Positions 1,689 to 26,256 of a DNA stretch of 33,131 nucleotides are shown here, one piece after another. Each line of letters starts with the position of its first letter. Within the stretch, counting starts at the first letter, position 1. The notes under the pieces were generated by a model. That model was not told the origin of the DNA. It worked only from the letters and a program-made list of their open reading frames with translations, and did not search any database. This DNA comes from Planotetraspora silvatica (GTDB lineage: Bacteria; Actinomycetota; Actinomycetes; Streptosporangiales; Streptosporangiaceae), in the NCBI RefSeq assembly GCF_016863315.1, contig NZ_BOOQ01000066.1, positions 1-33,131 on the forward strand, read 5' to 3'. Made by a program: the position numbers and the translations under genes.

Positions 1689-2726
1689 ATGCCTGCGTCC
1701 CTTTCTCGTCGCGCCTTCCTTTCCGGCGTCGGAGGCGTGTCGCTTCTCGCCGCCGGTACGGCGCTGAGCGCCTGCTCCTCCTCCACCACCTCCGCTTCCG
1801 GCCCGGCCAAGGCGAACTTCCAGCTCGGATGGGTGGCCAATGTCGAGAACATGGGCCTGTTCATGGCGGACCACGCCGGCTACTTCCGCAACGAGGGGCT
1901 CGACGTCACGCTGACACCGGGTGGCCCGTCCGTCGTCGTCGAACCGCTCGTGGTCAGTGGCAAGGCGCTGGTCGGGCTCGACTCCGTCGACACCATCGCC
2001 AAAGCACGTAACGAGGGTGCCGCTCTCAAGATCGTCGCCGCGACCATGCAGACCAATCCGACGGCGATCATGTCCCTCGCCTCGGCTCCCGTACGGACGC
2101 TGAAGGACCTGGTCGGCAAGCGACTCGGCGTCCAGCAGAGCGGCGTGGAGATCGTGAACACCGTGTTCAAGGCGAATGGCATCGATCCTGCCAGCGTGAC
2201 CATCGTGCCGATGCAGTTCGACCCGTCACCCCTGGTGGCCGGGGACTGCGACGCGTTCATGTCGCTGCTGGTGAACCAGCCGATCCAGCTGGACCTCCAG
2301 GGTGTGAAGACCACGACGTTCACGCTCGCCGAGTACGGCTACAACGTCTGGGCGGACGTGCTGCTCGTCCGTGAGCAGACGCTCGCGGACAAGGACAAGC
2401 GCGAGTTGATCGTCAAGATCGTCCGGGCCTCGGTACGCGGCTGGCAGGACGCGCTGAGCGACACCGACGCCGCAGCCAAGATCGTCGTGGAGAAGTACGG
2501 CAAGAGCCTCAATCTCGATCTGAAGGCGCAGCAGAAGACCGCTGCGGCGTTCCGGTCCGTCATCGAGGCCGGAGACGCCACGTCGAACGGTCTGCTCACG
2601 ATGAGCGACCAGGGGATCGCGGCCAACATCGCCACGCTGAACTCGATCGGTATCAAGGCGACCGCCGGTGAGCTGTTCGACACAAGCGTCCTCAGCGACG
2701 TCTACGCGGGCAAGACCCGCCTCTGA
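1689..2726 (+). CDS. ABC transporter substrate-binding lipoprotein, NMT1/THI5-like (SsuA/ThiY type)
   Basis: This is the extracytoplasmic ligand-binding component of an ABC importer. The start ATG at 1689 is chosen because it directly precedes a Tat signal (SRRAFLSG, twin arginines at residues 7-8), a hydrophobic stretch and a lipobox ALSAC with lipidated Cys29, and because AAAGG lies upstream. The mature part begins with the NMT1/THI5 pattern (LGWVANVENMGLFMADHAGYF), then GLDV and GGPSV. Length is 345 residues, normal for the family. Relatives bind sulfonates, nitrate, taurine or thiamine-precursor pyrimidines. The downstream ATPase, permease and deaminase make a nitrogenous heterocycle plausible, but this is inference. 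It is the first gene of the operon. Confidence 0.9.
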   Translation: MPASLSRRAFLSGVGGVSLLAAGTALSACSSSTTSASGPAKANFQLGWVANVENMGLFMADHAGYFRNEGLDVTLTPGGPSVVVEPLVVSGKALVGLDSVDTIAKARNEGAALKIVAATMQTNPTAIMSLASAPVRTLKDLVGKRLGVQQSGVEIVNTVFKANGIDPASVTIVPMQFDPSPLVAGDCDAFMSLLVNQPIQLDLQGVKTTTFTLAEYGYNVWADVLLVREQTLADKDKRELIVKIVRASVRGWQDALSDTDAAAKIVVEKYGKSLNLDLKAQQKTAAAFRSVIEAGDATSNGLLTMSDQGIAANIATLNSIGIKATAGELFDTSVLSDVYAGKTRL

Positions 2727-2770
2727 CGTCTCCCTTCTCGTTGCCCTCATACCAACAGGAGCCCACCCCA

Positions 2771-3352
2771 GTGCCTGTCCCGCACACCGAAGATCCTTGG
2801 ACACACGTCAACAGCGTGCGGGGATTCCCCGCCGACGAGTTGATCTCCACCCTCCAGAAGTCGATACGCCGCGGCCTGCTGGAGAACGCCCTGCTCGTCG
2901 CTCGTGAGATGTACGAGAGCAGCGACGAGCTGGAGGAGGTGATGTGGTCACGCCTCCTCGTCATGTCATGCGAGGACACCGGATCCGGCACGTTCACCGA
3001 ACCCGTGGTCCTCGATTCCCTCTATCGCATGCACCAGCACCTCCCCCGAGGCACCGGCGACAGGTGGCTGTTCGCGGTACACGCCGTACGGTTCCTGGTC
3101 AGCCGTACGAAGGACCGCACGACCGACGAACTGGCGCTGTGGACCATCAACATGCTGGGCAGCGGGGAACGCCTCCCCGAGATCCCCGACTACGCCCTCG
3201 ACATGCACACCCGCCGCGGGCAGGAGCTGGGCCGCGACATCTCGCACTTCCTGAGGGAAGGATCGAAGGTGGAGAACGAGCTCCCCGGCCGCGACACCTC
3301 CTACCGTGACCAGTTGCTCGCCCTCCTGGCGGCGGGAAAGTGGGACGCGTGA
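2771..3352 (+). CDS. Stand-alone protein resembling the C-terminal region of RarA/MgsA
   Basis: The protein is 193 residues from a GTG at 2771 that has CAGGAG nine bases upstream; an earlier in-frame start at 2741 lacks this. The pattern follows the RarA/MgsA C-terminal helical region: [13 protein letters not shown] (compare DLISALHKSVRG), [12 protein letters not shown] (compare RRCLAIASEDVG), a central helical stretch, then [19 protein letters not shown] (compare VPVHLRNAPTKLMKEMG). No Walker A, Walker B or AAA+ module is present, so it is not an ATPase. It lies between binding protein and ATPase genes, and its stop overlaps the ATPase GTG start, so it is translationally coupled to a transporter. 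The similarity is from memory of the family, not a database search. Function unknown; a regulatory or enzymatic helical protein are both possible. Confidence 0.6.
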
Positions 3353-4215
3353 CCGCCCGCCCGGACGCGGCCCCTCCGCACGCCGCCGACCCACCGAGCA
3401 CCGTAGGCCTGGCCGCGACCGCGCTCAGCAGGACCTTCAACGTAGGGGCGGCCGAAGTCGCCACGCTTCACGACATCGACCTGCACACGAGACGCGGCGA
3501 GTTCACCGCGTTGCTGGGTCCTTCCGGATGCGGCAAGTCCACCCTGCTGCGGATCTTCGCCGGCTTGGAGCGGCCGTCTTCCGGCGCCGCGCACGTCCAC
3601 GGCCGCTCCCCCGACGACCTGCGGCGTGAGCATCGCATCGGGGTGGCCTTCCAGGACGCCGCCCTGCTGCCATGGCGCAGCGTCGAGGCCAACATCGCAC
3701 TGCCCTTCGAGGTGGCGGGCCGACCGGTGAGCCGGACGGCGGTGGCGGACCTGGTGCGCCTCACCGGACTCACCGGCTTCGAAAAGGCCCGACCCGCCCA
3801 GCTGTCCGGGGGCATGCGCCAGCGAGTGGCGCTCGCGCGGACCCTCGCCGGCGAGCCGGAGGTCATGCTGCTGGACGAACCGTTCGGCGCATTGGATGAG
3901 ATGACCCGCCAGCGGCTCAACCTGGAACTGCAGCGGATCTGGCTGGAACGTGGGACGACGACCCTCCTGGTCACTCACTCCATCAGCGAGGCGGTGTTCC
4001 TTGCCGACACCGTGGTGGTGATGGGCGCCCGTCCGGGACGGATCATCGACGCTGTACGGATCGACCTGCCACGACCACGCGATGTCGGAGTTACACGTTC
4101 AGCCGAGTTCCATGCGCTCTGCGACACCCTCAGCGAGATGCTCTTCGGACAGGGCGGCGGCGGTGAGGGCGAGGGTGACTCCAGCCAGGTCGGCTCATCC
4201 GAGGACTTGACATGA
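3349..4215 (+). CDS. ABC transporter ATP-binding protein, SsuB/TauB type
   Basis: This subunit hydrolyses ATP to drive the importer from the cytoplasmic side. All motifs are present in order: Walker [10 protein letters not shown] (about residues 56-64), Q-loop FQDAALLPW, signature LSGGMRQR (about 150), Walker B VMLLDEP with [11 protein letters not shown] (about 172) and H-loop VTHS (about 208). The EPFGALD-MTR wording is characteristic of nitrate/sulfonate/taurine-type ATPases. The length, 288 residues, is normal for the subfamily. The start chosen is the GTG that overlaps the previous stop (GTGA); another GTG three codons upstream is possible. It overlaps the permease by four bases (ATGA). 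Confidence 0.93.
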
Positions 4216-5831
4216 ACCCATTCGTGGCGAGCCGGCGAGCCCCGATCGTGGCCCGCAGCGGTGTCCGGTCGTCGGTGGCCGTGGCATTCGGCGTGGTGGG
4301 CCTGCTCTTGATCTGGGCCATACTCGCGCAGATCTTCGCAGGCCTACGGGTCATCCCCCAGCCATGGGCAGTACTGCAGGCGATGTGGGACGACCGGAAC
4401 ATCTACTCCGGCAACATCTCCACCACGCTGTCCGAGGGTGCCATCGGATTCTTCTGGGGCAACGTTCTCGCCGTCGCGCTGGCCGGCGTCTTCGTCCAGG
4501 TCCCGGCCGTGGAGCGGCTGCTGCTGCGCATCGCCGTCGCGAGCTACTGCGTGCCGCTCGTCGCGATCGCGCCCATCCTCGTCGTCGTCCTGCCCGGCGA
4601 CGTCCCCAAGGAGGCACTCGCCGGGCTGTCGGTCTTCTTCACCACCTTGACGGCCGCCGTGCTCGGGTTGCGCTCCGCCGATCGCAGCGCGCTGGACCTC
4701 ATCCACTCCCTTGGCGGGGGCTCCTTCTTCATCCTGCGCAAGCTTCGCCTCCTTTACGCGCTGCCCAGCCTGTTCGCAGGACTCAAGATCGCTGCGCCTG
4801 CGGCACTGCTCGGCGCGATCATCGGAGAGTACCTGGGCTCCAGCAGCGGACTCGGCGTGATGCTGGTGCAGGCGCAATCGTCGTTCCAGGTGGCACGCAC
4901 CTGGGCGGTGGCACTCGTCATCTCGGCCCTGGCGGGCCTGGGCTACGCACTGGTCGCGATCATCGCTCGATGGCTCACCCCCTGGGCCGGCCGGGATGTG
5001 AGTGTGGGGGCGGGCGCGGTGGCATCCGGGGCAGCCGGCGACGGACGGGTGCGATCCCTGCTCGTCGGCGCGGTCGGACTGGCCGGCTCGATCCTCCTGA
5101 TCGTGGTCGGCTGGTATGCGGTCATCCGGGGTTTCGCCCTCGACCCGTACTTCGCGAAGACGCCGGCGGATGTCGCGACCTATTTGTTCGCCGGCGACGA
5201 CGCGGCGGATCATCGGCAACGTCTGCTGGCCGCCTTGGGCACGACGCTGCTTGACGCGGGTGTCGGCTATGTCGTGGGGCTGATCGCCGCAACGCTCGGC
5301 GCCGCAGTCCTGGTGGCGTTCCGTCGCGTCGAACAGATCGTCCTGCCGCTCGCCATCGTGCTGAGGTCCATCCCCCTGTTGGCCCTGACCCCCCTGCTCG
5401 CCCTCGTCTTCGGACGCGGACTACTGGGCGTCACCATCGTCGTCGCCGTGGTCACCTTCTTCGCCACCCTCGTAACGGTCAGCCAGGGACTGCGGGCGGC
5501 CCCCGTCCTCGCCTGTGAGGTCATCACGTCGCTGGGCGGCGGGCAGTTGACGGTCACGAGGAAAGTACGGCTGCTCTACGCGCTTCCCTCGCTGTTCGCG
5601 TCCGCGCGGATCGCGATCCCCGGCGCCATCGCCGGCGCCACTCTCGCGGAGTGGCTCGCCAGCGGCAAAGGACTGGGCAGCCTACTGGTCTCGGACTACA
5701 CCGCCTCCCGCTTCGCGGGGCTCTGGTCCGGATCGGTGGTGATCGTCGTCGTATCGGTGGCCCTATACGGACTCGTCACCGCTCTGGAACGTCCGGTTGT
5801 CGCGCGTTATGCGCCACAACGAGTGGAGTGA
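4212..5831 (+). CDS. ABC transporter permease, tandem duplicated (two fused BPD_transp_1 units)
   Basis: This membrane channel subunit is 539 residues, twice the usual 250-280 of SsuC/TauC permeases. Two homologous halves are visible. The first carries [20 protein letters not shown] followed by [19 protein letters not shown] and [11 protein letters not shown]. The second repeats this as [39 protein letters not shown] and [11 protein letters not shown]. Each half holds about six hydrophobic segments and an EAA-type ATPase-contact loop. A single polypeptide therefore probably forms the whole pore, pairing with two copies of the one ATPase. The ATG overlaps the ATPase stop. Confidence 0.92.
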
Positions 5832-5987: not shown

Positions 5988-6593
5988 ATGATGGACACCG
6001 CAACCCTTGCCACCGCCTTCGGCGCACGTCTCCCCCGCTGGGTCACCGCCGAGCTCGGCGGTGTCCCGGAGATCCTCCCGACCGACGACGACCGCATCCG
6101 CCTGACCAATCGGCTCGCCGATCGCAACCACCGCGAGGGGACCGGCGGCCCCTTCGCCGCCCTGGTCGTGGAGTCCGCCACCGGACGCCTGATCTCAGCC
6201 GGTGTCAACGTCGTCCTGGCCTCCGATTTGTCGTCGACCCACGCCGAGGTCACCGCGCTGTCCCTCGCCCAGACCCGGCTCGGTGCGTGGGATCTGGGTG
6301 GCCCGGGTCTGCCCGACCTGGAGCTCGTCGTCAACTGGCGGCCCTGCGTCATGTGCTACGGAGCCACCATGTGGTCCGGCGTCCGCCGTCTGCTCATCGC
6401 GGGCGACGGCCCGGAGCTGGAGAAGCTGACGGGCTTCGACGAGGGCCCGATGGTCGCCGACTGGGCCCCCCAGTTCGCCGCCCGCGGCATCGAGGTCGTC
6501 CTCAGCCCGCTGCGCGAGGAAGCCATCGAGGTGTTCCGCGCTTACGGGGAACGCGACGACGTCGTCGTCTACAACGCCCGCGGCACCGCTTAG
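5988..6593 (+). CDS. Cytidine/deoxycytidylate-deaminase-fold nucleoside or base deaminase
   Basis: This is a zinc-dependent hydrolytic deaminase of the CDA superfamily. The zinc ligands and catalytic glutamate are visible: HAEVTAL (His and Glu, about residue 85) and PCVMCYGA (two Cys, about residue 119). The 201-residue length is longer than the 150-160 of guanine or tRNA-adenosine deaminases because of a roughly 40-residue N-terminal extension and a C-terminal tail. It is the last gene of the transporter operon, so it probably deaminates the imported compound, for example a pyrimidine or purine-like base. Its stop codon TAG is immediately followed by the decayed IS630 sequence. The exact substrate cannot be read from sequence. 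Confidence 0.87.
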   Translation: MMDTATLATAFGARLPRWVTAELGGVPEILPTDDDRIRLTNRLADRNHREGTGGPFAALVVESATGRLISAGVNVVLASDLSSTHAEVTALSLAQTRLGAWDLGGPGLPDLELVVNWRPCVMCYGATMWSGVRRLLIAGDGPELEKLTGFDEGPMVADWAPQFAARGIEVVLSPLREEAIEVFRAYGERDDVVVYNARGTA

Positions 6594-6654
6594 TGGTCGG
6601 ATCTCGAAGTCCTTCGGGGGTTCATCAGGTGGTCAGGGCGGCAGAGGATTCTTC

Positions 6655-7198
6655 TTATCGGTCGGCGGGTGTGTGTCGGTTGAGTCTGGCCAGCAGATCG
6701 TCCAGGTCGGAGGTGGTGAACTTCCACTGGAACGGCTGTGCAGTGGCGTTGTAGCGGTCTTCGAATGCTTGGAGCCGGTCCCGGACCTGGGTCAGGTCCG
6801 TGAAGTCGTTGGGTGTGACGACCTTGCGCTGGACGATCGAGAAGAAGATCTCGATCTGGTTCGTCCAGGAGGCGTGAACTGGGGTATGGACCATGGCCGC
6901 GTTTGGAAACGCTGTGATGAGACAGTCGATGGCCTTCTTCCCCCGGTGGGAGGAGCCGTTTCCTTCCCCCGGTGGGAGGAGCCGTTGTCGACGATCCAGA
7001 AGACGCGTCTGGCGCTCGCGTAGGGCTCGGTGGCGTCTGCGCGGCTATCCGGGCGTTGGAGCGCCCTCGGGACGCCAGCAGCACGATGGTCGCCCGCTGC
7101 CGAGCCGGATGCGGGGTCTTGTGACCGTAGGCCATCTTCTTCAGCCGGTGGCGCTGCGAGGCGGTCAGCACGACGGCCACGGCGGGGGTGACAGGCAT
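6655..7198 (-). pseudogene. Decayed IS630-family transposase
   Basis: The N-terminal frame (from ATG at 7198: MPVTPAVAVVLTASQR, then RATIVLLASRGRSNARIA) carries the family's helix-turn-helix start. It then jumps near 7035 to TEPYASARRVFWIVDNGSSH, so the central part with the first catalytic Asp and surroundings, roughly half the gene, is deleted. A 26-bp tandem duplication (6935-6986) shifts the frame just after the DNGSSHRGK catalytic segment. The remaining C-terminus (HTPVHASWTNQIEIFF ... QPFQWKF) is intact to the stop at 6655. A full gene would be about 1,050 bp. It cannot make an active transposase. The remnant starts essentially at the deaminase stop TAG; IS630 elements target TA, so the TA there may be the original target. 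Confidence 0.88.
6935..6986. repeat. 26-bp tandem duplication inside the IS630 remnant
   Basis: Two adjacent 26-bp units (6935-6960 and 6961-6986) share TTCCCCCGGTGGGAGGAGCC and differ at one base. Because 26 is not a multiple of three, the duplication breaks the transposase frame. It probably arose by replication slippage. Confidence 0.9.
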
Positions 7199-17793: not shown

Positions 17794-18783
17794 TCAGGCG
17801 GATTCGCTGGAGGACGGCTGTGGCTCGACGTCCGGGGACGCGCCCGCCCGCACCCGCGCGACCTCCTCCGCGCTCGGATAGGACCTGGCGCAGCCGGGCC
17901 ACCGGCACGACAGCGCCCCAGCGATCACGGCTACCTCGAGCGCGTCGGGGGGAGCCGTCCCGGCGAGCCGTCCGGCCAGGTAGGCGCCGGCCAGCGCGTC
18001 GCCCGCCCCCGCGGTGTCGACGACCACGACCCGCGGCGCCGCGACGCGATGGATCTCACCGTCGGTCAGCACCACCGCCCCGGCCGGGCCGTCGGTCAGC
18101 ACGATCTCCTGCGGACCCTCGCCCAGCGCTGCCCTGATCCGGTCGGGACGGTCCGTGTCGAGCATCGCGCGGGCGTCCTCACTGGACAGGATCACAATGT
18201 CGGCGGCGCGGGCGAACGCGAGGTTCTGGTCGGTGTCGGGGCGCAGCATCGGGCGGTGGTTGACGCAGAAGGTCACCGTGACGCCACTGTCGCGGGCCAG
18301 TTCGGCCGCCCGCTCCGCGGCCCGGGCGGCACTACCGGAGATCGCCAGCGAGATCCCGCTGACGTGCAGCACCCCGGCGCCGTCCAGCAGGCGCCCGTCC
18401 ACGTCCGCCGCGCTGAGCCGCGTCGCCGCCGATCCGGACCGGTAGTAGTCGAAGGTGTGCCCGCCGTGCCGCACCGCGTTGACGTACAGTCCGGTGGGAG
18501 CGGACGGATCGACGGCGACCCTGTCGACGTCCAGGTGCGCACGCCGCCAGAAGTCCAGCAGCAGGCGGCCCGGGGTGTCCGCGCCGAGGCGAGTCAGCAA
18601 CCTGGCCGGGGTGCCCATCCGGGCCGCCATGACGGCCACGTTGGCGACGTCCCCGCCGATGCCCCGGCCGAGGTAGTCGGAGGGGAGGTCGTCACGCACG
18701 CCCACCTCCAGCAGCCCCTCGCCCACGGCGACGAGGACGGGCGTCCCTTCGCTGCTCGCGGGATCGGTGTTGTCTTGGATCAC
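17794..18783 (-). CDS. PfkB/ribokinase-family carbohydrate kinase
   Basis: This kinase phosphorylates the imported sugar or a derived sugar acid using ATP. It shows the N-terminal sugar-binding motif GRGIGGDVANVAVMAARMG (about residues 40-55), a substrate loop PTGLYVNAV, and the C-terminal catalytic/ATP motif VVDTAGAGDALAGAYLAG with the general-base Asp (about residue 260). The pattern is closest to 2-keto-3-deoxygluconate or 5-dehydro-2-deoxygluconokinase types, but substrate is unproven. The GTG at 18783 is chosen because GAGGAAG stands just upstream; an ATG at 18804 is also in frame. The stop of the binding protein is 48 bases upstream, so they are probably cotranscribed. Confidence 0.88.
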   Translation of the reverse strand: MIQDNTDPASSEGTPVLVAVGEGLLEVGVRDDLPSDYLGRGIGGDVANVAVMAARMGTPARLLTRLGADTPGRLLLDFWRRAHLDVDRVAVDPSAPTGLYVNAVRHGGHTFDYYRSGSAATRLSAADVDGRLLDGAGVLHVSGISLAISGSAARAAERAAELARDSGVTVTFCVNHRPMLRPDTDQNLAFARAADIVILSSEDARAMLDTDRPDRIRAALGEGPQEIVLTDGPAGAVVLTDGEIHRVAAPRVVVVDTAGAGDALAGAYLAGRLAGTAPPDALEVAVIAGALSCRWPGCARSYPSAEEVARVRAGASPDVEPQPSSSESA

Positions 18784-18831
18784 GCCGGCTTCCTCACTCC
18801 CCATTTTCGGTACGGCACAGCGGCGGGCGGA

Positions 18832-19812
18832 TCAGAAGATGCTGTCCGGGTTGCTGTACCGGTCCACGTTGTCCCCGGTGACCAGCGGGGCCTCCAAGGG
18901 GGTGTCCTTGCTGGGCTCGGCCCCCGCGAGCACCGCCATCATCCGGTCCAGGCCCGCGCGGCCGATCGTGTCGGCGTTGTTGACCGCGGTGGCGGCGTAG
19001 TTCGAGCCGCTCTTGATGGCGGCCAAGGCCTCCTTCTGGCCGTCGGCAGCGACGAGGAACATCTCGCTGGTCCGCCCGGCGTCGGCGATCGCCTTCTGCG
19101 CGCCGAGGCACATCGCGTCGTTCTCACAGAACACCGCGTCGATGTGCTTGTTCTTGGCGAGGACGTTCTCCATCACCTTCAGGCCGCCGTCGGAGCTCCA
19201 CCCCCCGAAGTCCGGGGCGGTCACGACCGTGATGCCGGGCGACTGCTTGACCACGCCGAGCAGGCCGTTCGTCCGGTCCAGACCGATGGTGTTGTCGGCC
19301 GGGCCGCCCGTGATGACGGCGAGAGTGCCGGTGCCCTTCAGCCGATCGGCGATGTACTGGCCGTCGCCCTGCCCGATCTGGGTGTTGTTGGGACCGATCC
19401 AGCTGGTGTACTGGCCGCCGGCGAACTTGCGGTCCACCAAGATCGACGGGACTTTCTTCTGCTCGATCGCGTTCATCGCGGCCGGCGCGGCGTTCAGCGG
19501 GCCGCCGGAGATGATGATCCCGTCCACATTCTGGGTCAGCAGGTCGTTGACGTTCGTCGTCAGCTTGGCCGCGTCCCCCTGCGCGTCCGTGCTGATCACC
19601 TTGACGTTGCTGTAGGTCTTGGCCTCGGTCTCGATGGCCTTGGCCATCGCGATGAAGTACGGCGCCTGGAGGCTGTAGTTCGCTATGCCGATGGTCAGGG
19701 TCTTCTTCGCGGCGCCTCCGCCGTTGTCACCTCCGCTGCCATCGGAGCTTCCGCACGCTGCGAGCGACAATGCGAGCGCGCCCACGAGAGCACAACCGGC
19801 GATCTTCTTCAT
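18832..19812 (-). CDS. RbsB-like sugar ABC transporter substrate-binding lipoprotein
   Basis: This is a periplasmic-binding-protein-type lipoprotein of 326 residues for a monosaccharide importer. The ATG at 19812 follows GGAAG. The N-terminus MKKIAGCAL and lipobox LSLAAC (lipidated Cys20) mark it as a lipoprotein. The mature protein has TLTIGIANYSLQAPYFIAM, NDLLTQNVDGIIISGGPL, VPSILVDRKFAGG, GTLAVITGGPADNT and AVFCENDAMCLGAQKAI, the standard Peripla_BP_4 frame. It sits between the permease and the kinase. A decayed relative lies at 14531-14845. Confidence 0.92.
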   Translation of the reverse strand: MKKIAGCALVGALALSLAACGSSDGSGGDNGGGAAKKTLTIGIANYSLQAPYFIAMAKAIETEAKTYSNVKVISTDAQGDAAKLTTNVNDLLTQNVDGIIISGGPLNAAPAAMNAIEQKKVPSILVDRKFAGGQYTSWIGPNNTQIGQGDGQYIADRLKGTGTLAVITGGPADNTIGLDRTNGLLGVVKQSPGITVVTAPDFGGWSSDGGLKVMENVLAKNKHIDAVFCENDAMCLGAQKAIADAGRTSEMFLVAADGQKEALAAIKSGSNYAATAVNNADTIGRAGLDRMMAVLAGAEPSKDTPLEAPLVTGDNVDRYSNPDSIF

Positions 19813-19902
19813 GGTTCTTCCTTCAGGGTGGGATGGACGCCTCACGACACGGCGAACAAGGCGACGGGGGACGAGGAGAGGGAGGATGGTGTGGGGGTGC
19901 GG

Positions 19903-20913
19903 CTAGGTGTTCTGCCGTTCGCCTCGGCGCACGAGGATCGCGACCGCGATGATGAGCCCCTTCAGCACCTGCTGCCAGTAGCTCTGCACGTCGTAGAGGC
20001 TGAGCAGGTTGTCGATGAGCCCGAGAAGAACGACGCCGGCGAGGGTGCCGCCGATGGTGCCGCGTCCGCCCGACAGGCTGGCTCCGCCGATCACGCAGGC
20101 GGCGATGGCGTCGAGTTCGAAGCCCTGGCCGACGCTCGGCTGCGCGATGCCGACCCGGGAGGCGAGAATGACGCCCGCGACTCCGGCGCACAACCCGGAC
20201 AGCGCGTACGCGAGCACCAGGTGACGCCGCACCTTGACGCCCGCGAGCCGCACCGCCTCGCGGTTGCCGCCGATGCCGAGCAGCGCCCGGCCCGCCGACG
20301 TGCGGTTGATCAGGACCCAGCCCAGCGCGAACATCGCCAGCGTGATGATCGCCGCGATCGGGATGGCGCCGACATTCTGCGAGCCGAGGGTCAGGAAGTC
20401 CGGCGTGGTCGGAGTGATCGGGGTCTTGGAGTAGACGTAGGTGAGCCCTCGGAACGTCGTCATGGATGCGAGGGTCACCACGAACGGAGCCAGCGAGAAC
20501 CGCGCGACCATGAGGCCGTTGACCGTTCCGCACAGCACGCCGACGACGATCGCCGCGAGGATCGCCAGCGGCAACGGCAGCCCGCTCACCAGGCCGGCCG
20601 ACATGATGCCCGTCAGTGCGACCACGGATCCGACCGACAGGTCGATCCCTCCGGTGAGGATCACCAGCAGCATGCCGAGGGCGAGCAGTCCGGTGGAGAC
20701 CATCTGCCGGAGCAGGTTGGTCATGTTCCCCTCGGTGAGGAACGAGTCATTGGTGACGCCCGCTACCACGACGATCGCGACCGCGGCGCCGATCAGCACC
20801 AGGACGGTCGGCGACGGGACGGCCGCGCGCCACCGGGCGGACGCCGGTGCCGTGGCCCCCGCCGCCTCACCCGAAACCGGGTCCAGCACCGTTGATGTCT
20901 GCTGCTCCGTCAT
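19903..20913 (-). CDS. RbsC-like sugar ABC transporter permease
   Basis: This integral membrane channel has 336 residues and about eight to ten hydrophobic helices, BPD_transp_2 type. Family marks include LLVILTGGIDLSVGSVVALTG, GTVNGLMVARFSLAPFVVTL, RTSAGRALLGIGGNREA and CVIGGASLSGGRGTIGG. The ATG at 20913 overlaps the stop of the ATPase (ATGA), so the two are coupled. Longer reading frames upstream belong to the ATPase in another frame and are not part of this protein. Confidence 0.93.
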   Translation of the reverse strand: MTEQQTSTVLDPVSGEAAGATAPASARWRAAVPSPTVLVLIGAAVAIVVVAGVTNDSFLTEGNMTNLLRQMVSTGLLALGMLLVILTGGIDLSVGSVVALTGIMSAGLVSGLPLPLAILAAIVVGVLCGTVNGLMVARFSLAPFVVTLASMTTFRGLTYVYSKTPITPTTPDFLTLGSQNVGAIPIAAIITLAMFALGWVLINRTSAGRALLGIGGNREAVRLAGVKVRRHLVLAYALSGLCAGVAGVILASRVGIAQPSVGQGFELDAIAACVIGGASLSGGRGTIGGTLAGVVLLGLIDNLLSLYDVQSYWQQVLKGLIIAVAILVRRGERQNT

Positions 20914-22394
20914 GCCGCGACCCCCACCGAATGCGCGAGGACCTCGTCCTCGGTCGTGTCCGCCGAGCCGACCTCGGCGACGAGCCGTCCGCCGCGCATC
21001 ACCAGCACGCGATCGGTGGCGCCGAGGACCTCGGTCAGGTCGGAGGAGATCAACAGGATCGCGACCCCCTCCCGGGTCAGCTCGTCGATCATGCGGTAGA
21101 TGTCGACCCGGGTGGCCATGTCGACCCCGCGGGTCGGCTCGTCCAGGATCAGCACCCGCGGCCGCGTCAGGAGCCACTTGGCCAGCACGACCTTCTGCTG
21201 GTTGCCGCCGCTGAGATGGCGGACCGGCATCTCCGGACGTGGCGGGTGGATGCCCAGCCGCTCGATCATGTCCTGAACGTTCGCGGCCCGCCGCCTGGTG
21301 TCCAGCAGGCCCGCGCGTGAGATCCGGGCCATCGTCGCGAACGTCGTGTTGTCGGTGACGTCCATGCCGAGGACGAGCCCGCTGTGCTTGCGGTCCTCGG
21401 TGACAAGCGCGACTCCGGCACCGATGGCGTCGCCGGGTGTGCGGAACCGCGTAACGGCGCCGTCCAGCTCAACCGTCCCGGACGTCGGCCGGTCGGCGCC
21501 GAACACGCACCGAGCGACCTCGCTGCGGCCGCTGCCGACCAGCCCGAACATGCCGACGATCTCGCCCGCCGCCAGATCGAACGAAACGTCGTCGAACACT
21601 CCGTCCCGGCTCAGGCCCCGCACGCTGAGCAACGGCTTGCCAGGCTCGGGTACCCGGTCCGGGTAGATCTGCTCCAGCCGGCGCCCGGCCATCAACGCGA
21701 TGATCTCGTCCTCACTGGTGTGGGCCGGGGTGAGCGTATCCACCACGCGGCCGTCCTTGATGACGGTGATCGAGTCGGAGATCTCCATCACCTCGGCCAG
21801 CCGGTGCGAGACGTACAGGATCGCGACGCCACGCTCCCGCAGCCTGCGAATCAGGTCGAAAAGCCGGTCGAGGTCGGTGCCTGCCAGCACGGCGGACGGC
21901 TCGTCCAGCACGAGCATCCGCGGCTCGACCGCCAGTGCCTTGGCGATTTCCACCATCTGCTGGCGCGCGACCGACAGCTTGCCGGCACGCACGCGCGGAT
22001 CGATGTCGGCGAACCCGATCTCCTCCAGCAGCGCCCGCACCCGCGCGTGCGCCGCCGACCAGTCGACCAGGCCGCGTTTGGTGGGCAGCGCCCCCAGCAA
22101 CACGTTCTCTGTCACCGTCATCTGGGGCACGAGGCTGAGCTCCTGGTAGACGGTCCGGAACCCCAGGCCCTGCGCGTCCTCGGGGCCGCGCAGGGTGAGC
22201 GGCTCGCCGTCCAGCAGGATCTGTCCGCCGTCCAGCGGCACGGCCCCCGCCAGCACCTTGATCAGGGTCGACTTGCCCGCGCCGTTCGCGCCCGCGATGG
22301 CGAGAACCCGCCCGCCCTCGGCGGTCAGGTCGACGCCGTGCAGGACCTCGACGCCGCCGTATCCCTTGCGGACGCCCCGCAGTTCCAGCTTCAT
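20910..22394 (-). CDS. RbsA-like sugar ABC transporter ATPase (two nucleotide-binding domains)
   Basis: The 494-residue duplicated ATPase powers the sugar importer. The first domain has Walker A GANGAGKST, signature LSVARQQMVEI and Walker B MLVLDEPSAVL. The second has the typically degenerate Walker A GLVGSGRSEV, signature LSGGNQQKVVL and LILDEPTRGVD. This asymmetry is normal for RbsA, MglA and XylG. The ATG at 22394 overlaps the aldehyde dehydrogenase stop (ATGA), giving the operon order dehydrogenase, rbsA, rbsC, rbsB, kinase. Confidence 0.94.
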   Translation of the reverse strand: MKLELRGVRKGYGGVEVLHGVDLTAEGGRVLAIAGANGAGKSTLIKVLAGAVPLDGGQILLDGEPLTLRGPEDAQGLGFRTVYQELSLVPQMTVTENVLLGALPTKRGLVDWSAAHARVRALLEEIGFADIDPRVRAGKLSVARQQMVEIAKALAVEPRMLVLDEPSAVLAGTDLDRLFDLIRRLRERGVAILYVSHRLAEVMEISDSITVIKDGRVVDTLTPAHTSEDEIIALMAGRRLEQIYPDRVPEPGKPLLSVRGLSRDGVFDDVSFDLAAGEIVGMFGLVGSGRSEVARCVFGADRPTSGTVELDGAVTRFRTPGDAIGAGVALVTEDRKHSGLVLGMDVTDNTTFATMARISRAGLLDTRRRAANVQDMIERLGIHPPRPEMPVRHLSGGNQQKVVLAKWLLTRPRVLILDEPTRGVDMATRVDIYRMIDELTREGVAILLISSDLTEVLGATDRVLVMRGGRLVAEVGSADTTEDEVLAHSVGVAA

Positions 22395-25240: not shown

Positions 25241-25269
25241 AATGTCCCGACGCGAGCGCAGAAGAGCCG

Positions 25270-26256
25270 CCATCAATGTCGTGTACTGCAGTTTCGCCAC
25301 CAGGGCCGGGCACGCGCTGGTCGGTGCGCGCCTGTATCTTCCGGCCGAACAAGCCGCCGATGCCGCCCGGCGCAGGCAGGCCCGGGTACCTGAGGAGGTG
25401 AAGTTCGCGACCAAACCGGAACTGGGCCGACAGATCCTGGCCGGCCTGCACGCCGAAGGCCGGCTGCCGCCGTGGGTGACCGGGGATGAGGTATACGGCC
25501 GTGACCCAGGCCTGCGGACCTGGCTCGAACAGGCCGGCACTGGCTATGTGCTGGGGATCTCCAAGTCGACCCCGGTCGCCTTCACCAAGACCCGCCAGGC
25601 CAGGGCCGATACCGCGCTGAAGATGCTGATCGCCTCGGACTGGGTCATCGATTCGTGCGGGGGCCGGCTCCAAAGGCGAACGCCGTTACGCCTGGGCCTG
25701 GATCGGCACCGCCGACCCACGCCATCACCTGCTGATCCGCCGCAGCCTGGTCCTCAATGCCAAAGGCGTCCGTGAAGTGGCGTTCTACCTGTGCTTCGTC
25801 CCCGAGGGGCACCCTGTCACGTTGCGTACCCTCATCACGGTCGCCGGGCGCAGGTGGCCTGTGGAGGAAGATTTCCAGACTGGAAAGGACGCGTTCGGGC
25901 TGGACCATTCCCAGGTCAGGACCTACCCGGCGCTGCTTCGCCACCTCGTGCTCACCATGGCCGCACTGGCCGTGTGTGCCGTCACCGCCGCCCGGGCTCG
26001 CACGACCAGCGGCAGCACGATGCCGCTACCGATCAGCCCCAACGATGTCCCGCCGGCCGACCCGGGGCTGATCGCGTTGACCGTCGCCGAGGTGAAACGC
26101 CTGGTCAACCTACTCACCCACAGATGGCACGATCTGGAACATCACCTGCGCTGGCACATCTGGCGACGACGACACCAAGCCCGGGCCCGCTGGTTCCACC
26201 ACCGAACACGACTCAACCGCCGACTCAACCGCCGATGTGTGACGGCGCGGACGTGA
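25270..26256 (+). pseudogene. N-terminally truncated, frameshifted IS701-like transposase
   Basis: The remaining sequence carries VVYCSFATRAGHALVGARLYLP, WVTGDEVYGRDPGLRTWL and YVLGISKSTPV in one frame. After one extra G in a G-run near 25660 it continues in another frame: SKGERRYAWAWIG, REVAFYLCFVPEGHPV and RRWPVEEDFQTGKDAFGLDHSQVR with the catalytic Glu region. The N-terminal third, including the first catalytic Asp, is missing, so it is inactive. Its end overlaps by about 30 bases the 3' end of the convergent TetR gene, so the element may have inserted against or replaced the last codons of that gene. Confidence 0.85.

Follow-up and report, generated by a model that had tools for sequence, protein, structure and literature searches.

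In the window, a stretch of 33,131 nucleotides from Planotetraspora silvatica (contig NZ_BOOQ01000066.1), a gene lying within an ABC importer operon encodes a stand-alone relative of the C-terminal domain of RarA/MgsA, and the family to which it belongs is a divergent, unnamed branch of this known domain in an unexpected role. With moderate confidence we place this protein (solo MgsA_C, hereafter the solo protein) as a cytosolic, ligand-processing member of the RarA/MgsA C-terminal helical-fold family in an operon for the uptake and breakdown of purine nucleosides or nucleobases. Judged from the sequence evidence its function appears to be directed at ligand handling; we infer the ligand class and the cytosolic location, and the reaction proposed below is a guess.

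Members occur across many phyla, time and again beside nutrient importers, yet annotated copies go by “hypothetical protein” on plasmids and mostly by “AAA-ATPase” in phages. Identifying the ligand would fill in a step now missing from nucleoside salvage, and the solo gene singles out a group of NMT1-type importers that probably carry purines or nucleosides. Knowledge of the ligand would also help to explain why residues in the C-terminal part of RarA are conserved, and PMC8735627 describes the molecular function of that protein as obscure.

The solo gene and its operon

The open reading frame of the solo gene starts with GTG at 2771 and ends with TGA at 3350-3352, and is preceded by a likely ribosome-binding site (Table 1). 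The initial annotation had described a 193-residue protein with RarA/MgsA landmarks and without an ATPase module, and this description was borne out: three landmarks were found in the protein (in stretches of 18 and 10 residues), and the window protein alone matched zero Pfam families at E 1 or better and carried no AAA+ domain. The GC3 value of the gene is 0.87, compared with 0.84-0.90 in the four other operon genes, and dN/dS is 0.20-0.23 against the homologs at loci L045, L046, and L047; the comparison with the very close L044 gave 0.54 at a dS of only 0.07, and with L048 no dS was computable. Both measures fit a gene under selection. The stop codon overlaps the GTG of the ATPase gene at 3349-3351, which agrees with the stop/start coupling claimed earlier; a second in-frame GTG for the ATPase gene is located at 3340.

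The operon lies divergent to a gene for a LacI-type regulator and encodes, in this order, an NMT1-type binding protein, the solo protein, an ATPase, a double permease, and a PF00383 deaminase, so that the binding protein, ATPase, and permease of an NMT1-type ABC importer are all present. The best NCBIfam models for the ATPase were of the nitrate/taurine/sulfonate type, all below their cut-offs. We propose that the operon would serve the regulated uptake and breakdown of a purine nucleoside (or nucleobase), with control exerted by the LacI-type regulator, uptake by the NMT1-type importer, and the deaminase acting in the breakdown. Elsewhere in the window, a second cluster at 17794-22394 resembles, by reading, an ABC importer of the ribose type together with a sugar kinase, and the open frames at 6590-7198 and 25242-26256 resemble, likewise by reading, insertion-sequence remnants.

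Table 1. Coordinates of the solo gene, its putative ribosome-binding site and the neighboring operon genes in the window.
Feature	Position	Strand	Evidence or remark
LacI-type regulator, divergent from the operon, runs to the contig edge	3..1049	-	
NMT1/THI5-like substrate-binding protein	1689..2726	+	PF09084, E 5.8e-46; start at ATG 1689 picked within the longer frame 1518-2726
AGGAG, likely ribosome-binding site of the solo gene	2757..2761	+	9 bases before GTG (sequence)
Stand-alone RarA/MgsA C-terminal-like protein (solo MgsA_C), 193 aa	2771..3352	+	Family alignment, PF12002, PDB profile, model, Foldseek
ABC ATPase	3349..4215	+	PF00005; GTG 3349
Fused tandem permease, two BPD_transp_1 stretches on one chain	4212..5831	+	
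Nucleoside/base deaminase-like protein	5988..6593	+	PF00383, E 3e-12; TadA model E 9.1e-7, below cut-off

Kinship to the RarA/MgsA C-terminal domain

Direct searches of Pfam, NCBIfam, and PDB with the window protein gave nothing significant (best PDB match: 2r9g at E 1.2), and a PF12002 search of the window's own genome left the solo protein unmatched at E 0.01. A route through the protein family was therefore required. A relative at 43% identity scored above the MgsA_C cut-off (29.7 vs 27 bits) and matched PDB 2r9g (3.9e-5) and E. coli RarA 3pvs (3.8e-4). Among the 70 rows of the family alignment 53 matched PF12002 at E 0.01 or better and 17 were unmatched, and a profile built from all 70 rows matched six PDB sequences at E 1 (E 1.5e-10 to 8.6e-5), all of them RarA/MgsA-type ATPases (2r9g, 2qw6, 3pvs, 3bge, 3ctd, and 8g28). 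Structure 3pvs is titled MgsA/RarA; the other titles read AAA ATPase, mostly for C-terminal fragments, and we take these to be MgsA-type. In a one-to-one comparison by hhalign the solo family aligned with 11 RarA sequences at a probability of 96 and an E-value of 2.2e-9.

The AlphaFold2 model of the window protein (mean pLDDT 93.7, pTM 0.81) was in accordance with these profile results. Using the model as query, Foldseek returned RarA/MgsA-type structures in all of rows 1-19 (best E 5.6e-5, 14 of the 19 at E 0.001 or better), followed by an unrelated structure in row 20 (E 0.62) and by clamp-loader chains from row 21 (E 0.84). The longest superpositions of the model on RarA/MgsA structures were loose, with an rmsd of about 10 A, and superpositions of parts were tight (2qw6: 91 columns at 1.8 A; 3ctd: 127 columns at 2.9 A).

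A profile of six solo rows only, run against 396 genomes of the phylum and 394 of the class, recovered beyond solo genes 14 different frames of 372-537 aa (E 2e-8 to 6e-4) and no RarA-length match in most of these genomes; on its own it would lend the kinship weak support, RarA being widespread. A RarA motif filter retained 10 of these 14 long frames together with a frame from the window's own genome, and the resulting RarA comparison set thus consisted of 11 of the 15 frames sought (text filter), all from the window's own phylum. In the tree the 70 solo rows were separated from the RarA rows by a 100/100 branch.

Taken with the matches to PF12002, PDB, and Foldseek structures, the kinship of the solo protein to the RarA/MgsA C-terminal domain, as claimed in the initial annotation, is real. 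Still, the solo protein is not the cell's RarA, since it has no AAA+ module and a separate RarA frame of 473 aa, matching PF12002 at 3.1e-71, is encoded elsewhere in the window genome. It also differs from RarA/MgsA in its location in metabolic operons.

The stand-alone family and its invariant residues

The unnamed family was collected by one scan of genome contigs with two degenerate peptide patterns, a census that is not exhaustive and that gave 71 loci. According to the record titles these belong to the Actinomycetota, Chloroflexota, Pseudomonadota, Acidobacteriota, Spirochaetota, Bacillota, Fusobacteriota, and others. The 70-row alignment comprised the window and 69 loci; L006 was left out of alignment A1 (stop codon within the range), and L113 (incomplete frame) and L114 (no ORF) were left out of alignment A3. 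Stand-alone MgsA_C proteins were not found treated anywhere in the literature searched, a weak negative given that subscription journals were thinly covered. Copies on plasmids were named “hypothetical protein” in 12 of 17 matched records, 4 others being without annotation and 1 without the feature.

The 69 relatives, at 36-92% identity, share with the window protein the same 17 invariant columns in 70/70 rows: 13 polar or aromatic residues (D22, K30, R33, R34, E46, W59, R61, E68, D69, R107, K114, H146, and T147) and L62, L109, G150, and G154. Six of the 13 (K30, R33, R61, E68, D69, and K114) as well as G154 are also invariant in the 11 RarA sequences, in which L62 is found in 10/11 and L109 and H146 each in 9/11. 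The remaining seven (D22, R34, E46, W59, R107, T147, and G150) are confined to the solo family (0/11 RarA). Conversely, seven positions are uniform in the 11 RarA sequences and different in the solo protein (Y22, G34, A59, S115, N116, Y147, and A150). Since seven invariants are common to both groups, part of this shared core may be structural.

In the AlphaFold2 model D69, K114, H146, and T147 are located between helices. The loops holding these four residues may meet, as single bridge residues at 14, 20, 70, and 114 suggest. As modeled, the invariant residues fit a putative, strongly basic ligand site of the kind expected for a phosphate or a base. The invariant charged residues and the position of D69, K114, H146, and T147 between helices favor an enzyme acting on an imported nucleoside or phospho-glycoside, and the solo protein would most likely bind and process the imported ligand rather than move it.

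It is possible, and in our estimate distinctly less probable, that the solo protein is instead a non-catalytic, probably oligomeric nucleoside/nucleotide sensor or scaffold that tunes the pathway through the importer, the deaminase, or a regulator. The RarA domain that it resembles is an oligomerisation domain (3PVS), the RarA C-terminal domain is not known to have enzyme activity, and 7 of the 17 invariant columns are shared with RarA. In a literature passage RarA is described as working as a tetramer. A sensor or scaffold would also be in line with the variety of transporter types and regulators that accompany the solo protein. However, 13 polar or aromatic invariants kept across phyla, among them D22, R34, E46, W59, R107, and T147 of the solo family only, exceed what a scaffold usually needs.

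Linkage to importers

An importer was encoded within 6 kb of the solo gene for 49 of 71 genes (70 loci and the window; L114 is without an ORF), namely an NMT1 ABC importer for 23, a PnrA/BMP ABC importer for 8, a MalFG-like ABC importer for 10, and a PTS EIIC for 8, while the other 22 had none of the screened importer types within this distance. These counts are based on neighboring genes called by simple ORF rules and not by a gene finder, they are not independent because many loci are near copies, and some are depressed by contigs ending inside the 6 kb; L051 was scored as “none” despite a MalFG-like gene 5.2 kb away. The label “MalFG-like” was assigned to the permease from reading, the companion binding protein being SBP_bac_1. 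The initial annotation had named two outcomes that would speak against it, a structure unrelated to the RarA C-terminal region and a linkage to transporter genes that is not conserved in other genomes; neither appeared in the Foldseek search and this neighborhood survey.

The importer types were clustered on the solo tree, with 11 changes compared with a mean of 49 after shuffling. The BMP-linked solo proteins at L054, L055, and L059 (Agromyces and Amnibacterium flavum) were nested on starred branches among NMT1-linked rows, which include that of Amnibacterium kyonggiense (L057); the importer appears to have been exchanged while the solo protein remained. Also the place of the gene in the operon varies, as it follows the permease gene in L063 and L065, is convergent in L072, and comes first in L073. 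Constancy of the solo protein while unrelated importers change and its variable place in the operon make a tie to the ligand more probable than one to the transporter.

A role as a dedicated importer subunit, whether accessory or for assembly and acting for example on the ABC ATPase, is accordingly quite unlikely for the solo protein. Such a subunit would be consistent with the position of the gene in the window between the binding protein and the ATPase, with stop/start overlap, and with the co-occurrence of the two genes in the window's own family, where binding proteins of the window type (at least 85% identity; up to 6 candidates per genome scored) were found in 6 of 338 genomes and these are the same 6 that hold a linked solo gene. 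Against it stand the association of one family with PTS as well as with ABC importers of the NMT1, PnrA, and MalFG-like types, the varying gene position, and the importer relatives at 41-42% identity that lack a solo gene, these being the next-closest binding proteins in the window's family. The solo gene was detected in 7 of 341 genomes of this family, the seventh (43% identity) being on an 8-kb contig with none of the screened importers. Of the three roles suggested in the initial annotation, ligand processing is thus favored by importers that differ among close relatives and by the variable operon place, an assembly factor fits poorly, and a transporter regulator retains some plausibility.

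Several other loci showed further arrangements. On two plasmids the solo gene adjoins a PTS EIIC gene: in Cetobacterium (L118:6292-8905) an RpiR-type regulator is also present, and in Enterococcus faecium (L119:7980-11693) an IS110 element lies in between; the PTS-solo pair of Superficieibacter had no match in E. coli. In an Erysipelotrichaceae locus (L106:8599-10551) a gene of the ADP-ribosylglycohydrolase family adjoins the solo gene, and a PnrA-like importer is near.

Nucleoside and purine genes in the neighborhood

At least one of nine nucleoside/purine families was encoded within 6 kb of 17 of the 23 NMT1-linked and 6 of the 8 BMP-linked solo genes, compared with 0/10 of the MalFG-like, 2/8 of the PTS-linked, and 1/21 of the unlinked rows; the loci counted here are also those that supplied the nine families, and the sole control is distance, which was uneven. 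By distance from the solo gene the hits to these families numbered 16 (0-2 kb), 24 (2-4 kb), 3 (4-6 kb), and 9 (6-8 kb), that is 40 in 528 kb up to 4 kb and 12 in 450 kb between 4 and 8 kb. The low MalFG-like and PTS counts and the 6 of 23 NMT1 rows without a nucleoside gene speak against a general nucleoside theme.

Near the NMT1- and BMP-linked solo genes we identified nucleoside hydrolase, the nucleoside deoxyribosyltransferase family, PfkB kinase, PNP/UDP phosphorylase, IMP dehydrogenase, a metalloenzyme family (phosphopentomutase-like by reading), and amidohydrolases of the deaminase group. The six amidohydrolases tested were all below the NCBIfam cut-offs, their best models being TRZ/ATZ hydrolase, N-ethylammeline chlorohydrolase, and 5'-deoxyadenosine and 8-oxoguanine deaminase. 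A type I phosphodiesterase gene was near 7/10 solo genes of the MalFG-like branch and a GH4 gene near 5/8 of the PTS branch, and with these neighbors the family taken together extends beyond nucleosides. A strict substitution of the solo gene for nucleoside hydrolase was rejected, since L054, L055, L059, and L073 carry both.

Three of the window-importer relatives (41-42% identity) without a solo gene were opened, and all have purine/nucleoside-type or PfkB neighbors. One of them (L142:5453-11401, 41% identity) has a nucleoside hydrolase gene directly upstream and an amidohydrolase gene downstream, suggesting a purine nucleoside importer; another (L143) has PfkB near, and the third (L144) has uricase, OHCU decarboxylase, and a molybdopterin-dehydrogenase flavoprotein within about 7 kb. 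From these neighbors the importer clade of the window looks purine-directed, which would be consistent with PMC7373994, where NMT1/THI5-like genes under a xanthine riboswitch go with deaminases and nucleoside transporters.

The clusters of PMC7373994 resemble the present loci in having NMT1-type binding proteins beside TadA-like and guanine-type deaminases. They differ in that the NMT1-motif RNA is absent from the window and the 27 loci scanned, and the text available of that paper mentions no solo gene. The Rfam scan of the window and the 27 loci gave no riboswitch at solo operons; in L080 the solo gene is 3.1 kb away from a ZMP/ZTP riboswitch (L080:11095-11177), and two other solo genes have group II intron matches at distances of 1.3 kb (L070:9917-10564) and 0.1 kb (L103:8692-8735). 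PnrA and BmpD are purine nucleoside binders according to PMC7093131. ABC operons of this PnrA/BMP kind are near solo genes at 8 loci, 6 of them with nucleoside-type enzymes, whereas the window has an NMT1-type importer instead.

As for the chemistry of the proposed ligand-processing enzyme, an N-glycoside or phospho-glycoside reaction would, speculatively, be the likeliest, as the contexts of the family share nucleosides, phospho-sugars delivered by PTS, and glycosylated phage bases.

Phage copies

Short relatives of the solo protein were found in 62 phage records (56 Microbacterium, 5 Arthrobacter, and 1 faecal) and at two loci on viral contigs, and the window protein matched PHROG 16866 and 33349 (phage families of unknown function or named “ATPase”) with E-values of 4.9e-8 and 1.1e-6. 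Among 20 listed records of Microbacterium and Arthrobacter phage copies, 19 carried the name “AAA-ATPase”, yet the single copy opened has a length of about 206 aa. In Busephilis the solo-type gene follows genes annotated as ParB-like, glycosyltransferase, and UDP-glucose dehydrogenase; by Pfam the dehydrogenase only was confirmed of the latter two, and the Pfam scan of the solo copy itself gave no family. On one viral contig (L115:669-8420) genes for ParB, a TET-associated glycosyltransferase, a sliding clamp (DNA polymerase III beta), and a second ParB precede a solo copy that is above the MgsA_C cut-off. The three phage-type copies examined kept R34, E46, T147, and G150, whereas D22 was absent in 3/3, R107 in 2/3, and W59 and K114 each in 1/3, and they grouped with RarA in a quick tree with long branches, a placement that is unsure.

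A wider reading, which we consider unlikely, is that stand-alone MgsA_C proteins constitute a new helical class of nucleoside- or glycoside-processing enzymes. The RarA/WRNIP1 C-terminal domain would then be a relative in which roughly half of this pocket is retained (K30, R33, R61, E68, D69, K114, and mostly H146), so that at stalled forks a base or nucleotide might be recognized or acted upon by RarA, and other copies would be used by phages beside DNA-base glycosyltransferases. Very unlikely is a cut-down RarA serving in DNA maintenance and guarding replication against imported base or nucleoside analogs, for which the homology to RarA, the ParB, sliding-clamp, and glycosyltransferase genes beside distant phage versions, and the uncertain grouping of these versions with RarA could be cited, but which is opposed by the lack of an AAA+ module, the seven RarA-uniform positions that differ in the solo protein, the separate RarA frame in the genome, and bacterial neighbors that are mostly metabolic where tested. 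A replication-fork role, to which the initial annotation had alluded, is for the first three of these reasons not supported for the bacterial solo protein. At the second viral-contig locus (L145:3738-6579) the phage relative of the solo gene is located beside ParB.
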